From a virus: a stretch of 30,048 nt of DNA. The position numbers and the translations under genes were made by a program. The notes below the pieces were generated by a model. That model worked only from the letters and a program-made list of their open reading frames with translations, did no database searches and was not told where the DNA came from. Shown piece after piece: positions 11,897-28,540 of the stretch; positions within the stretch are counted from its first letter, which is position 1, and each line of letters begins with the position of its first letter. The stretch spans positions 1-30,048 of the IMG/VR virus record IMGVR_UViG_3300030333_000940. One strand, written 5' to 3'.

Positions 11897-12181
11897 TTAG
11901 TCACTATCAGAAACAGCACCGATTACTGTACCATCTGAAATATCGACTACCGAACTGGCGTTACTGACTACAACGTGCATCGTTACAGTTCTAGTACCAC
12001 CAGTTGCACCGTGTACAATAATCATGTCTCCAACTCTTAAAGTGTCAGACAAATCATTAAAGTACCCACTTGCATCAACAGCAGTATGAGCGTCAGTTGT
12101 TGTATAGACATATAATGCCGGGGTTGTGCCAGCCTTCGCTTGACCACCTAATGGACCCCATCCAGATCTTGCAAACGCCAT
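11897..12181 (-). CDS. Putative capsid decoration / head protein, 94 aa
   Basis: This is a short protein, mostly Gly, Thr, Val and Asp, with an N-terminus AFARSGWGPLGGQAKAGTTP and a compact beta-rich body containing ASGYFNDLSDTLRVGDMIIV. Small proteins with this G.A..G..P.LY.Y.T.D....V...GYF......L..GD.I.V pattern often follow capsid genes in environmental phages and are annotated as head decoration or hypothetical proteins. It begins one base after the capsid stop with an AGGGAG ribosome site. Function is inferred from position and pattern. A head-closure role is also possible. Confidence 0.6.
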   Translation of the reverse strand: MAFARSGWGPLGGQAKAGTTPALYVYTTTDAHTAVDASGYFNDLSDTLRVGDMIIVHGATGGTRTVTMHVVVSNASSVVDISDGTVIGAVSDSD

Positions 12182-12182
12182 T

Positions 12183-13037
12183 TTAACTCTCCCTACAAGT
12201 AATGTCTACTAGACCAGCAGTATCAATAACACCGGCTCCAGCAGCAAGTTTAGCCGTTACCAGAAATGAAGTTTTCTCTGGAACGTAGTTAACCTCAATA
12301 GAAGGCATGATACCGACAGCCATCGCAACAGCATTTTTATGAAATGCAAAGCAAGTTCTGTCATTAGAACCGTCAATAGTTAGACCACCTTCATCCCGGT
12401 CACCGATCATATGTACGGTCATGCCCAAAAACGAATTTATTTCACCGGCTACTAAGGCACGAATATTGGCATAATCAGCCGATACAGCCCTCTCATCACC
12501 TAGTAATGCAGATAAGTTATTTGCATGAATTATAAGATGACGGTCTGTTGGTGGAACATTAGCAGCATCCAATGCTTTCTTGGCTGCCAATATCTTTCCT
12601 ACGCTTAGATCTGAAGCACTCGCACTGCCTGTGGTCACCACCGTGTTTGCAACAGTTGTTCCAGCACTCGCAGCTAGTAATGCATCTAGTAGAATTTGGT
12701 CTTGCCTTCTACCAATCGCACTTCCGACTACTTGAGCCAATTCACGCCTTTCGTCAAAGTTTACCTTTTGCTGATCGAATATGTCAGAATATTCTGAGGC
12801 ATTATAATTAGTTAATGTTACAGCCGTAGTTGCCGTACTAACATTTAGAGGCACTACGTCAGTTTGAGGGGTTCGTACTGTCGCTTGCCCCTTACCAATT
12901 GAAGGAAAATTGGCTTGAGAGCCAACTACCCCGGTTCGCATTCTACAAACGCCTGTTAGCTGAGCCGTGGCTTGATAAGCCTGTTTAACTTCAGCATCAA
13001 AAATTTGTACAAATGCAGTTGATAAATTAGTAGATAT
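12183..13037 (-). CDS. Major capsid protein, 284 aa, apparent AUA start
   Basis: The family is recognised from the body (TGVVGSQANFPSIGKGQA, then an SEYSDIFDQQKVNFDERREL stretch and AIGRRQDQ.LLDALLAA) and from the position after the scaffold gene. The first ATG in the frame (12941) would remove about 32 residues that look native: STNLSTAFVQIFDAEVKQAY, then QATAQLTGVCR. That stretch is in frame from an ATA codon at 13037-13035, preceded by GGGAG at 13050-13046 with an 8-base gap. An in-frame TAG at 13053-13051 closes the frame upstream, and there is no ATG, GTG or TTG between TAG and 12941 in frame. ATG 12941 itself has no ribosome site. I therefore place the start at ATA. A sequence error (ATG read as ATA) is the main alternative. 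Confidence 0.85.
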   Translation of the reverse strand: MSTNLSTAFVQIFDAEVKQAYQATAQLTGVCRMRTGVVGSQANFPSIGKGQATVRTPQTDVVPLNVSTATTAVTLTNYNASEYSDIFDQQKVNFDERRELAQVVGSAIGRRQDQILLDALLAASAGTTVANTVVTTGSASASDLSVGKILAAKKALDAANVPPTDRHLIIHANNLSALLGDERAVSADYANIRALVAGEINSFLGMTVHMIGDRDEGGLTIDGSNDRTCFAFHKNAVAMAVGIMPSIEVNYVPEKTSFLVTAKLAAGAGVIDTAGLVDITCRES

Positions 13038-13232
13038 TTTAAAATCTCCCTACATAAGTTAAAATTTAAAGCATTCGCCTTAAAGGTTATTGGGAGATCC
13101 CAGCCTTCTGACTACGTTATACGTTAACGCAACGATGAATTAATCATGTCAGATCGGCTCAAAGAGTTATCGATCATTTAACCCATAGCACAGATAATTA
13201 TTACTTGTAAACTGCTAATCTAGACTTTGTAC
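13038..13232 (-). promoter_or_regulatory. Capsid leader region
   Basis: About 195 bases between the scaffold terminator and the capsid start hold no gene that I can support. Since a terminator lies just upstream, the capsid message probably starts here or is extended by readthrough. A weak sigma70-like pair may be TTTACA with TATGGG 18 bases later (minus strand, about 13210-13180). A short dyad (TGGGAGATCCCA, near 13090-13101, flanked by AAGG and CCTT) could form a leader hairpin. The ribosome site GGGAG is at 13050-13046. The promoter is a guess; the rest is seen. Confidence 0.4.
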
Positions 13233-13233
13233 A
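13218..13233. repeat. CTTTGTACA element, copy 2
   Basis: ATCTAGACTTTGTACA lies immediately after the T-run of the scaffold terminator and matches 15 of 16 bases at 19189-19204, just after the initiator gene. The core CTTTGTACA is shared with 523-531 and 24526-24534. Lying at the start of the capsid leader, it could be part of a late promoter (read TGTACAAAG on the minus strand). Confidence 0.65.
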
Positions 13234-13277
13234 AAAAAAAGGGCTGGCAAATTAAGGGGAAACACTTTAACCAGCCC
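13233..13277 (-). terminator. Rho-independent terminator between scaffold and capsid genes
   Basis: On the minus strand the arm GGGCTGG (13277-13271) pairs with CCAGCCC (13247-13241), and inner TTAA blocks can extend the pairing. Eight T residues follow directly (13240-13233). This is a standard intrinsic terminator shape, located 27 bases after the scaffold stop. It would limit readthrough from the terminase/portal operon into the capsid gene, so capsid expression probably depends on a separate promoter or on antitermination. Confidence 0.85.
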
Positions 13278-13303
13278 CAGTTTATTCCCTAGGAGGAAAT
13301 ATT

Positions 13304-14095
13304 TTATTCGGGATACCTTTTCTCAAACTCGCTTTCAACTTTGCGTGTGTATGCTTGATCGTTGTACATTCGTGGGTCTTTCATAGCCTCGGACATACGA
13401 GAATCAAATTCTTCTTGGCTTTCGGGTAAATCTGTATTGGTAACAATAGGCAATGTATCTTTACCGTTAATCATCCCTCTAATAATTCTTAATGTAGTAT
13501 TGCCCATAGCATCAGAACCTAAATCCCTTATTTTTTGGGCTTGTTCTTCCGAGAAGATTTTTTTCCTTTCCATGCCTTCGAGCCACTCGATGTTTTGGTT
13601 GACGATTTCTTTGGCGTTGGGACCGAGTTTTTCCATTTCTTCTTCCGAGTTGAACTTAGCTTCCTGTTCTCTTTCTCCAGCCATTCCAATGATTTTTCCG
13701 GCAAGGTCATCGAATGCTTTTTGGGAAATCTTATTTTCTTTAGCCCATTCAGTATAGGCTCCAACCAATTCATCACTTTTATCGTAACCAGCATCAACCA
13801 AGATTTTATCATCATAATTCTCCGGGGCTTTATGTTTTCCTTGTGAAAATTGTTTTTCCAACTCACTTAACGATTTAAATACGTCCTGTTCTCGCAGTTT
13901 GCCTTTGTCCTTATCCCAAAACTTTTCTGGTACATAATCTGGTCTGTCGGCAATTTTTTCCTCTACATCCTCTGCCCTGTGAGGAATACTTTCCGGTTCA
14001 CCTACAGGCTCTTCCCTTGTAGCATTTACTTCTGCTTGGGCATTAGCTAATAGCCCTTTATCTTCTTCTACTGTTTCAGCTTGTTGTTGTTCCAT
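13304..14095 (-). CDS. Capsid assembly scaffolding protein, 263 aa
   Basis: This is a very acidic, Glu/Lys-rich, helical protein just before the capsid gene and after the Bbp19-like and portal genes. It has a disordered acidic N-terminus (residues 1-50). It then has the motif RPDYVPEKFWDKDKG (about 51-65), a common feature of podoviral scaffolds that I recognise, followed by a region suited to coiled coil and a C-terminal charged tail (VESEFEKRYPE). Scaffolds bind the inside of the procapsid and leave before DNA packaging. The gene overlaps the Bbp19-like gene by 20 bases and ends at a strong terminator. Confidence 0.82.
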   Translation of the reverse strand: MEQQQAETVEEDKGLLANAQAEVNATREEPVGEPESIPHRAEDVEEKIADRPDYVPEKFWDKDKGKLREQDVFKSLSELEKQFSQGKHKAPENYDDKILVDAGYDKSDELVGAYTEWAKENKISQKAFDDLAGKIIGMAGEREQEAKFNSEEEMEKLGPNAKEIVNQNIEWLEGMERKKIFSEEQAQKIRDLGSDAMGNTTLRIIRGMINGKDTLPIVTNTDLPESQEEFDSRMSEAMKDPRMYNDQAYTRKVESEFEKRYPE

Positions 14096-16184: not shown

Positions 16185-16432
16185 TAAGCTAAGTTCCTTG
16201 GATTACGAACACCACCACCTAGTTTCTGCTTTAAATTGCCTTCTGCATAATCGGGTCTAGTGCCACCAGAACCCATCATTAATCCTTGCATACCACCTTT
16301 TTTCTTCGATGCCATCGATGCTGAAATAGACTTTTGACGTAGACGTTCTTGTTCGGCTGCTTTTTCTTGAGCAACAAGTGCATCTGTTGATGGTGGTGGT
16401 GGGGCTTTTGGTTTTGAAAATAAACTACCCAT
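16184..16432 (-). CDS. Small Pro/Gly-rich virion-region protein, 82 aa
   Basis: The start MGSLFSKPKAPPPPSTDAL is followed by a short helix (EKAAEQERLRQK) and a Gly/Lys/Met-rich tail. Short proteins beginning MG..F.KPK.PPPP are common upstream of portal or tail genes in podophages and T7-like phages. I recognise the pattern but no function is known. It starts at the stop of the DUF2833 gene (one-base overlap) and is part of the terminase-portal operon. The disordered composition suggests a peptide that works by binding a partner. Confidence 0.7.
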   Translation of the reverse strand: MGSLFSKPKAPPPPSTDALVAQEKAAEQERLRQKSISASMASKKKGGMQGLMMGSGGTRPDYAEGNLKQKLGGGVRNPRNLA

Positions 16433-16926
16433 TAGTAATACCTCGCAAACATATAATAATCATTTCCATCTGGTCCATATTGTTTCATTGTACCTTCTTG
16501 ATTAAAGTAACACCTTTTTGCCCACCGTACTGCTTGAAAATTGGTTGAATGTACGGTGAATTGTAATCTTTTTAGGTCTTTTTTTTCTGCATAATAGTCA
16601 AAAAACAGTAATGATGCCCTGTGCATAGTGATAGTTTTACGCTTGATATGTCGTGATGGGATAAGCCAAGCCTCGGATACACCATGCCATAATGGAAAAC
16701 AGCCAAACATAGCGTAAACAATTCCATCACATATAGCCGTAAAGCTATCACCATGTGATGCAAAACTTGCTAGATACGATGGATAATCATAAAAGTTTTT
16801 AATTAGATCGTTGTGATGCTTATTAAGGTCAATCTGTTTATAATGTTCGAGTTCCCAACGTACAATCTGATGCCGTGGGTAGTCCATCCGGGTGACACGG
16901 TTTATTTCATTAAGCGAAAACATCAA
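16432..16926 (-). CDS. DUF2833 protein, T7 gp13-like / GNAT-fold, 164 aa
   Basis: This resembles the DUF2833 family, which includes T7 gp13 (internal virion protein A, or an assembly protein), and has a GNAT-acetyltransferase-like plan. Signs are SFTAICDGIVYAMFGCFP (about residues 60-78), then SEAWLIPSRHI and a helix, then LKRLQFTVHSTNFQAVRWAKR, and a final aromatic strand (DYYMFARYY). A usual GNAT acetyl-CoA loop (Q/RxxGxG/A) is not evident, so enzymatic activity is doubtful. It follows the large terminase with a 17-base overlap. In T7 the homologous protein is needed for correct internal virion assembly. Confidence 0.72.
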   Translation of the reverse strand: MMFSLNEINRVTRMDYPRHQIVRWELEHYKQIDLNKHHNDLIKNFYDYPSYLASFASHGDSFTAICDGIVYAMFGCFPLWHGVSEAWLIPSRHIKRKTITMHRASLLFFDYYAEKKDLKRLQFTVHSTNFQAVRWAKRCYFNQEGTMKQYGPDGNDYYMFARYY

Positions 16927-18836: not shown

Positions 18837-19045
18837 TAAAAAGGCTGGTCCTTTTCTTTCTTAGCCTCAAAGCATTGCAGCCATAAATCACCATCCTTAT
18901 TAGGTAAGGGAAGAGCATTCAGCTTAATAGAGCGTTTACCGTCAGCCTTCTCCAACAAAATGCCTAAACTCATCCACCGGGTTTTCTCTTCACCGTTAAC
19001 AGTAAAATTACCTTGGGATTGCATTACTAAATATGTTTTATCCAT
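18836..19045 (-). CDS. Conserved small protein of phages, 69 aa
   Basis: This is the first gene of the packaging/virion operon. It has a pattern that I recognise from short conserved proteins in phages and mobile elements: YLVMQSQ...GEEKTRWMSLGILLE..DGKRSIKLNALPL...GDLWLQCFEA (the shared core is TRW..LG........I.L.ALP...G...L). It is probably one small beta domain. Function is unknown. It shares one base with the small terminase gene and is preceded by AAGGAG 7 bases before ATG 19045, a strong ribosome site. Confidence 0.68.
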   Translation of the reverse strand: MDKTYLVMQSQGNFTVNGEEKTRWMSLGILLEKADGKRSIKLNALPLPNKDGDLWLQCFEAKKEKDQPF

Positions 19046-19089
19046 TGAAAAACTCCTTAATGAAATTGTGGAAAATATTTTTGTGATAG

Positions 19090-19115
19090 CCCCCCTCTAT
19101 ATACGCATGGGGGGG
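19090..19115. other. C6/G7 hairpin upstream of the packaging operon
   Basis: In the 165-base gap between the initiator and the packaging operon, six C residues (19090-19095) and seven G residues (19109-19115) face each other around a 13-base loop. No T-run follows on either strand, so it is not a usual terminator. The position directly before the terminase genes makes a cos or pac element, or a leader structure, possible. This is inference only. Confidence 0.5.
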
Positions 19116-27758: not shown

Positions 27759-28079
27759 TTAACCCTTTTTAGCCCAGCTACTAAAGCCAAAGAAGGTAGC
27801 AACGATAGCACACTGACTAACTAAAAATGTATTTAAAAAACCAGAGATAGAATTTAATCTTTCAATCTCAACTAATGGTGTAAACAAAACACCGACAGCA
27901 ATACATACAGATGCCATAGCTACCCACGCCATAGCCCTGTGTTGGTCTTGCATTTTATCAAGGTTATCTAACTGGACCAGTTCTTTATGAAGAGACATCT
28001 CACGGTCACTAATCTCACCGTCACCGTCTAAGTCAGCATCCTCATACATAGAACCTTTTTGTAATTTCTTTTGTGCCAT
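27759..28079 (-). CDS. EF-hand membrane protein of the lysis region, 106 aa
   Basis: The N-terminus contains a complete canonical EF-hand loop DADLDGDGEISDRE. The coordinating positions are D16, D18, D20, E22 (backbone position), S24 and E27. A helix follows (LHKELVQLDNLDKMQDQHRA), then two membrane segments (about 50-70 and 78-100) and a basic end. It may sense calcium at the membrane, perhaps for lysis timing, or stabilise a membrane complex. By position it lies in the lysis cassette between a membrane-anchored coiled-coil protein and the holin. It shares one base with the gene before it. Function is unknown; the motif is clear. Confidence 0.72.
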   Translation of the reverse strand: MAQKKLQKGSMYEDADLDGDGEISDREMSLHKELVQLDNLDKMQDQHRAMAWVAMASVCIAVGVLFTPLVEIERLNSISGFLNTFLVSQCAIVATFFGFSSWAKKG

Positions 28080-28540
28080 TAAACTGCTCCTTGTTTTTGC
28101 CAGATTAATATGCCAATAACTGCTAATCCCCCGGCTGCAACAACACTTAAAAATATTAAAATCATTTTACCTATCATCTCTAATCTTTCTCGTCTGGCTA
28201 CTTGCCTAGCTAATAATTCTTTACGCTTTCTTTCTTTTATGCTTGCCCTCAATCGTATCAATTCTTGCCAAGCCTCGTATCCTCTGGTTTCTAATATTAT
28301 CGCTCTTAGCTGGTCCTCATAATCTTTGGCTTTCTGTAGATTGACAAATGTCTCCATTGCCTCTTCTTCGGCTGACCCTCGGAATGGGCTGTTTCTCGCT
28401 GATGAATGATCTGACCTTGCTTGATCTATAGCACCCCAGAGTTTACCAATATCTTTTCCTAGTTCAGAAATTTCCTTGCCGTGATTAATACCAGCAACAA
28501 TAGCTTTGTAAGCTAAACCAGCGACCAGAATTGGCTCCAT
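28079..28540 (-). CDS. Membrane-anchored coiled-coil protein, 153 aa
   Basis: The first 30 residues are partly hydrophobic (LVAGLAYKAIVAGINHGKEI). Residues 60-123 are charged and helical, with the strongly basic IKERKRKELLARQVARRERLEM just before a single membrane helix (about 124-147), and a short tail WQKQGAV. I recall similar proteins next to lysis genes of environmental phages but no name or function. It shares one base with each neighbour, in a chain with the XhlA-like and EF-hand genes. A spanin-like or structural role is possible but there is no lipobox. Confidence 0.6.
   Translation of the reverse strand: MEPILVAGLAYKAIVAGINHGKEISELGKDIGKLWGAIDQARSDHSSARNSPFRGSAEEEAMETFVNLQKAKDYEDQLRAIILETRGYEAWQELIRLRASIKERKRKELLARQVARRERLEMIGKMILIFLSVVAAGGLAVIGILIWQKQGAV

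Follow-up and report, generated by a model that had tools for sequence, protein, structure and literature searches.

A conserved AUA codon as the start of the major capsid protein gene in a clade of MEP301-related phages, behind a strong Shine–Dalgarno sequence and a folded leader RNA

Sequence comparison gives good support to an AUA codon (ATA in the DNA) as the start of the major capsid protein gene in the window, by which we mean the whole 30,048-nt stretch of viral DNA that was analysed. We take this codon as the capsid start because no other start fits the conserved N-terminus of the protein, and because the AUA is kept across a whole clade of related phages. It is probable that the AUA is the true start, read by ordinary fMet initiation, and that it serves as part of a translational throttle; the start itself is well supported, and the fMet reading and the regulation are what we infer. 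AUA starts behind extended Shine–Dalgarno (SD) sequences are known for regulatory genes; the major capsid gene of a phage is a new case. In this marine phage group the combination of AUA, a strong SD and a folded leader suggests that capsid synthesis is damped or switched. The leader of the capsid gene of MEP301-related phages is a covarying structured RNA without a match in Rfam 15, and is a separate finding. The features at the start of the gene are as follows.

12183..13037, minus strand: major capsid protein gene, putatively ATA-initiated, 284 codons plus stop (PF19821, phrog_3437, fold match)
13035..13037, minus strand: putative ATA start codon, opposite the ATG of relatives; ATA in 8/8 clade contigs
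13046..13052, minus strand: extended SD stretch UAGGGAG, with 8 nt spacing to the ATA; includes the in-frame TAG; invariant in the clade
13050..13055, minus strand: ATG-TAG start-stop pair, in frame, without an SD of its own; kept in 8/8 clade contigs
12939..12941, minus strand: first in-frame ATG (residue 33 counted from the ATA), not the start; in L003 and L007 the codon here is TTG

No stop interrupts the capsid frame on the minus strand between the TAG at 13052-13050 and the one at 12185-12183. The sequence across the site reads TAG GGA GAT TTT AAA ATA TCT (GGGAG at 13050-13046), with an ATG at 13055-13053 directly before the TAG at 13052-13050. The positions that an earlier note on this DNA had given for GGGAG, the ATA and the ATG at 12941 all check on the minus strand, as does the ATG-TAG pair that it had mentioned, and there is indeed, as it had stated, no ATG, GTG or TTG in frame from the TAG to 12941. 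The product of 12183..13037 is an HK97-fold major capsid protein. It matches the PF19821 (Phage_capsid_2) capsid profile with an E-value of 4.6e-68 (230 bits against a cut-off of 25) over residues 6-283 and profile positions 2-293 of 293, i.e. over the whole domain, and its PHROG match is phrog_3437. The best Foldseek match of the predicted fold (mean pLDDT of the model 75.9) is the LME-1 capsid (9eg4_A, E 1.8e-20); many tailed-phage capsids are also among the matches, and the predicted model has an HK97-like fold.

About 32 residues encoded 5' of 12941 had been described in the earlier note as native-looking, and they proved homologous to the N-terminus of related capsid proteins. When aligned (a comparison that it had proposed), I-S-T-x-L-S in the window stands against M-S-T-x-L-S in the relatives, so that the ATA falls on their ATG. 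Nine positions (F9, F13, E16, V17, Q19, A20, Y21, Q22 and R32) are invariant in 28/28 aligned sequences, and the model predicts a helix at residues 7-24 and part of a strand (32-35) within the N-terminal 32 residues. Over codons 2-33, dN between the window and other ATA-clade members is 0.05-0.10 against a dS of 0.40-0.97, which indicates purifying selection on this part of the protein. Among the homologous genes of the window, the capsid gene alone shows an excess of homology of 36 codons 5' of its first standard start. Smaller excesses of 12-26 codons were seen in a few window frames: those at 18839-19096 and 27762-28166 each have their own SD-ATG, and the plus-strand frames at 19090 and 21238 are antisense to genes. 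A stop-to-stop homology listing of the window frames was dropped as too noisy, antisense frames having matched too.

The UAGGGAG stretch can form seven pairs with the anti-SD tail (-8.9 kcal/mol), a value that ranks joint third among the 33 gene starts scored in the window, the other 32 of which are ATG. The SDs of the ATG-starting sister group are weaker than that of the ATA clade (-5.3 to -6.3 kcal/mol). However, 31 of 151 other capsid starts (contigs counted before the removal of duplicates) have a stronger SD, so that the SD of the ATA clade is strong and not exceptional. The site has the marks of the class of conserved AUA starts: a non-canonical codon at the homologous start is kept in 7/7 distinct genes, and it is preceded by an extended SD (UAGGGAG, seven pairs) at the correct spacing of 8 nt. 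The AUG of the start-stop pair, 18 nt 5' of the AUA, is kept in all eight contigs, in spite of variation in the bases immediately before it; the UAG of the pair is kept because it is part of the SD, which does not explain the AUG.

A scan of viral contigs with the capsid protein gave 510 relatives. The best 80 were retained, and the start region was examined in 78 of them (the contigs L030 and L075 begin inside the gene). Seven among the best 80 of 510 relatives have an ATA start (L002, L003, L005, L006, L007, L008 and L025), always in the context TAGGGAGATTTTAAA-ATA-TCTAC, and the sister group (L004, L009 and L010) has the context GGGAAAATCCT-ATG-AG. A pattern scan allowing any third base gave seven contigs, the same seven, and so did a scan with the leader pattern. 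The ATA clade thus consists of eight contigs including the window, with seven distinct genes (L005 and L006, from two metagenomes, have identical genes), and the search for the same ATA in related genomes that the earlier note had called for found it in 8/8 clade contigs.

Further scans covered the relatives of MEP301 (80/80 ATG), the relatives of L026 and L079, and genome assemblies (22 loci). After removal of duplicates there were 240 distinct genes, 231 with ATG, two with GTG and seven with ATA; L204, L205, L281 and L353, with matches inside the gene, were left out of the tally. Matches beginning elsewhere than at a standard codon were assigned the next standard codon upstream in frame as their start. 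The 231 ATG genes are 227 plus four rows printed as TTG (L267, L271, L272 and L282), in which the match ends internally and an ATG and an AGGAGG lie just upstream. The GTG capsid starts in the family are at L078:841 and L291:401. For HTVC010P and SI2, the match begins exactly where the record annotates the capsid start (the codon itself was unread), and the record of a Vibrio phage has just 69 nt before the capsid gene; that of EXVC031P was left out. In a tree of 36 rows, hand-chosen as representatives, the seven ATA genes form one clade (98/98) nested inside ATG relatives, recovered in 98% of 200 bootstrap trees. By this evidence AUA would have arisen once and then been kept.

One transition would restore AUG, and none has spread in the clade. 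Whole-gene dS between distinct clade members ranges pairwise from 0.25 to 1.7, and since it reaches 1.7, a single-base return to AUG has not been favoured. Mean identity within the clade is 98.7% for the 22-nt initiation site and 95.3% for the leader core, 79.7% for the gene (first 686 nt) and 75.8% for the region before the leader. Of the 13 twofold A sites in the capsid gene, however, eight are invariant over all seven lineages, so that mere drift could have preserved the A on its own, provided that AUA carries no cost.

The leader, which the earlier note had not mentioned, precedes the SD and shows its own conserved fold, with these elements.

13075..13175, minus strand: leader RNA core (P1, P1a, P2, P3, P4 and P5), from covariation and covariance model R1
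13152..13175, minus strand: leader helix P1, GATCG-AUAA-[CTC..GAG]-C-CGATC, from covariation
13091..13102, minus strand: leader hairpin P5 (TGGGATCTCCCA), whose ATCTCCC (13098-13092) is the complement of GGGAGAT in the SD

These elements lie between a terminator-like repeat and the SD. On alignment A1 (22 sequences, 21 distinct), which was built without regard to structure, the outer pairs of P1 are changed on both sides in 5/5 cases and 100% of the cells are paired; the paired percentage for P1 and P1a together was reached by 0 of 500 shuffles, and slid versions gave 23-46%. With P3 added, alignment A3 (18 sequences) was again matched by 0/500 shuffles. In A4, an alignment fitted to the model, 84.5% of the cells pair and 26 out of 29 pairs are changed on both sides, helix P2 being poorly supported (48% of cells paired). 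The pairings in a hand segmentation of P1 and P5 were picked by score and hence biased, so we rely instead on the covariation tests with A1 and A3. Covariance model R1 was searched against 60 sources (334,422 bases, E up to 1) and gave 18 matches, all just 5' of the capsid gene, with 42 of the 60 sources having none; the matches include L043 (2e-7), L058, L056, L023 and L015, which were outside its building set. Examples of leader loci just 5' of the capsid gene are L005:2865-2964, L026:228-331 and L059:1520-1619. Variants with most of the P3/P4 region missing and the P1 and P5 motifs kept are found at L056:2888-2962, L058:2892-2963 and L015:2884-2945.

One side of the last hairpin carries a C bulge and its other side a 4-nt NNNA loop; of 239 leaders, 184 have this motif, against 0/717 within-gene windows and 4/2,390 shuffles (which preserved dinucleotide steps only). 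P1 and P5 look like the same C/AUAA internal loop, with the order of the two strands swapped between them. No Rfam 15 family matched over its gathering threshold in the window or in 15 related loci; sub-threshold matches for the leader (E 0.12 or worse) are chance-like and were set aside. A literature search for structured RNA before phage capsid genes found none by title or by the beginning of the abstract.

The P5 hairpin of the ATA clade is predicted to pair, through its 3' side (AUCUCCC), with the SD (GGGAGAU) at -13.7 kcal/mol, the strongest of 35 groups; the value for the sister group is just -0.9. By simple folding, the unpaired probability of the SD is 0.00-0.11 in 7/7 ATA leaders against a median of 0.29 in 232 others, a difference whose computed p value overstates its significance because the seven ATA leaders are one evolutionary event, and the same prediction buries the SD in 43 of the 232 other leaders. 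For the window, the SD is paired in the minimum-energy fold (-38.7 kcal/mol) and free when P5 is imposed as a constraint (-32.8 kcal/mol). Sequestration of the SD by P5 as a family-wide property was rejected: the group test (190 of 240 leaders parseable) gave p=0.054 when all 35 groups were counted, the ATA clade supplying two of them; leaving these two out gave p=0.33, i.e. no better than shuffled, and the 25 groups outside the STN/STG branch gave p=0.67; a p of 0.005 from 11 hand-made groups did not hold up in this wider test. The eight groups of the STN/STG branch without ATA gave a marginal result (p=0.037). As the family-wide test failed, we claim SD pairing for the ATA clade alone. The ATA clade is characterized by an SD stronger than that of its sister group, a predicted SD-pairing hairpin and a weaker start codon.

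The genes and elements next to the capsid gene are as follows.

13304..14095, minus strand: upstream gene, ATG start; probably capsid assembly or scaffold by position, as MEP301 gp32
11897..12181, minus strand: downstream 94-aa gene, ATG start; its SD, TGTAGGGAGA, is nearly the same as that of the capsid gene
13233..13278, minus strand: inverted repeat resembling a terminator, with T8, in the gap that separates the assembly gene from the capsid leader; 23-nt loop; read directly

The gene at 13304..14095 has no PHROG match. Six distinct clade sequences extend to the downstream gene (the window, L002, L003, L005, L007 and L008; L025 ends before it), and it has ATG in every one of them. Its ribosome-binding site (12181-12205, minus strand) is inside the last capsid codons and is a near copy of the capsid SD. 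The loop of the repeat at 13233..13278 is beyond the range of the terminator scan, and the repeat is absent from the list of that scan; at the corresponding place the sister group carries another repeat, also followed through the text by a T-run. Elsewhere in the window, the gene at 16432-16926 (minus strand), with a weak acyltransferase PHROG match, has TTG as its first standard start and occupies the position of the putative acetyltransferase of MEP301.

Other ways of starting the protein fit these data less well. Amber readthrough, with a start at the ATG at 13055 and the UAG read as an amino acid (M-x-G-D-F-K-I-S-T), could account for an ATG-TAG pair kept in 8/8 clade contigs, but the ATG has no SD upstream, the UAG is the 5' part of the seven-pair SD, which accounts for its conservation, the ATG sister group lacks a matching extension, and 10/10 records (several of them fragments) contain no suppressor tRNA, nor any tRNA. 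A readthrough gene would have its coding sequence conserved 5' and 3' of the stop, with an SD-bearing start upstream; here only an ATG precedes the TAG, and the four codons between the TAG and the ATA show zero variation in the clade, as expected of a ribosome-binding site. We consider readthrough very unlikely; the earlier note had also ranked it lower, and the missing SD and the role of the 'stop' within the SD bear this out. An internal start at residue 27, 30 or 33, where standard codons are present, is highly improbable, as these codons vary among clade members (TTG27, GTG30, and ATG33 or TTG33; in L005, L006 and L008 the first standard codon is TTG at residue 27), the 20 bases 5' of them contain no convincing SD by eye, and the predicted helix at 7-24, with residues invariant in 28/28 relatives, would be lost. 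Hardly any weight can be given to an out-of-frame start at AUU (13045-13043), from which ribosomes would reach the capsid frame by -1 slippage on U-UUA-AAA. This heptamer (TTTTAAA) lies in the spacer between SD and start and never varies in the clade, but the AUU, in that frame the sole start-like codon shortly before it, adjoins the SD with zero spacer, and the frame has no ATG, GTG or TTG after its last stop. A sequencing or assembly error, for which we found no point in favour, is practically negligible, since the same codon occurs in the window and seven contigs, with names pointing to six metagenomes and gene identities down to about 73%. A phage-encoded initiator tRNA for AUA was rejected, with zero tRNA genes in the window and zero matches in the 10 records, several of them fragments. 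The AUA as start is thus supported by its position, the SD spacing, the homology of the N-terminus and conservation through the whole clade, as the earlier note had proposed from the window.

It is also conceivable, if somewhat unlikely, that AUA is the start and has no regulatory meaning, the codon having drifted in a host that tolerates near-cognate starts, or with strong transcription from the leader as compensation. The invariant twofold A sites (8/13) in the same gene agree with this, a single origin of the ATA fits one chance fixation, and the capsid gene may be transcribed separately, behind the terminator-like repeat. On the other side, 32 of the 33 scored starts in the window are ATG (one further gene has TTG as its first standard codon), so this phage is sparing with weak starts, and conservation is higher at the initiation site than over the gene. 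Against any weak start weighs the fact that capsid protein is needed in hundreds of copies, and highly expressed genes are usually expected to use AUG.

If AUA initiation acts as a throttle, the extended SD with its 8-nt spacing would hold the host ribosome on the AUA, and ordinary fMet-tRNA would initiate there via a third-position mismatch, giving a protein that begins Met-Ser-Thr; the predicted N-terminal peptides are STNLSTAFVQIFDAEVK or STGLSTAFTQIFDAEVK, with or without Met. Initiation would be slower and the yield lower than with AUG, and IF3 and the accessibility of the SD would be able to modulate both, with the clade-specific SD-pairing hairpin in the folded leader as a second brake. 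The likely purpose would be to hold back capsid synthesis, or to set its timing, in relation to the assembly protein and the downstream AUG gene. More doubtfully, AUA and leader might together form one translational switch for capsid synthesis. The leader RNA, in that case a new class of phage leader with its two C/AUAA loops in opposite order, would then bind a protein or another signal (our guess for a ligand, if there is one, is the capsid or the assembly protein), the conserved fold would free the SD, and the alternative would pair AUCUCCC with it; the weak AUA would keep the leak low and make output sensitive to IF3 or the state of the ribosome late in infection.

A weak start on the gene of the most-produced protein runs against the expectation of AUG, and if the throttle is real, phages can tune the ratios of structural proteins at the start codon. 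Such capsid proteins are cut short by gene callers that accept only ATG, GTG and TTG. The same gene, found in AUA and in AUG clades, provides a natural test set, as do the adjacent capsid and downstream genes, a natural AUA/AUG comparison with near-identical SDs and different start codons.

Phage T4 baseplate gene 26 has an internal AUU start; it is like the capsid gene in being a phage structural gene with a near-cognate start, and unlike it in the codon (AUU), in the internal position and in the smaller product. The capsid protein of Methylophilales phage MEP301 (PF19821, phrog_3437) is 58.5% identical to that of the window, and MEP301 shares a similar order of head genes and a leader hairpin of the same motif type (seen via L090, 100% identical), whereas MEP301 and its relatives have an ATG capsid start. 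We found no capsid-gene case in the literature searched for AUA or ATA starts in phages, and no natural phage AUA start in the available portions of PMC10158994 and PMC11497404 on initiation; the terms start codon, untranslated, RNA structure and riboswitch are all absent from the MEP301 paper (PMC8024684). In Streptomyces, according to an excerpt of PMC5472188, the GTC start of sigR is repressed by IF3, which resembles our case in that a non-canonical start is a level of translational control; it differs in the codon and in the gene (a bacterial sigma factor), and dependence on IF3 is a property of sigR that we only infer for the capsid AUA. The closest parallels are infC and ccpN of Staphylococcus aureus, which, in the excerpted text of PMC13009471, have conserved AUA starts behind extended SDs with good spacing; the non-canonical sites measured there reached about 10% of the AUG level in poor medium, and the ccpN AUA up to 30% of it in rich medium. 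The capsid gene shares the conserved AUA, the extended SD and the good spacing with them, but those genes encode bacterial regulators or factors, and here the product is the main virion protein of a phage, known from sequence.
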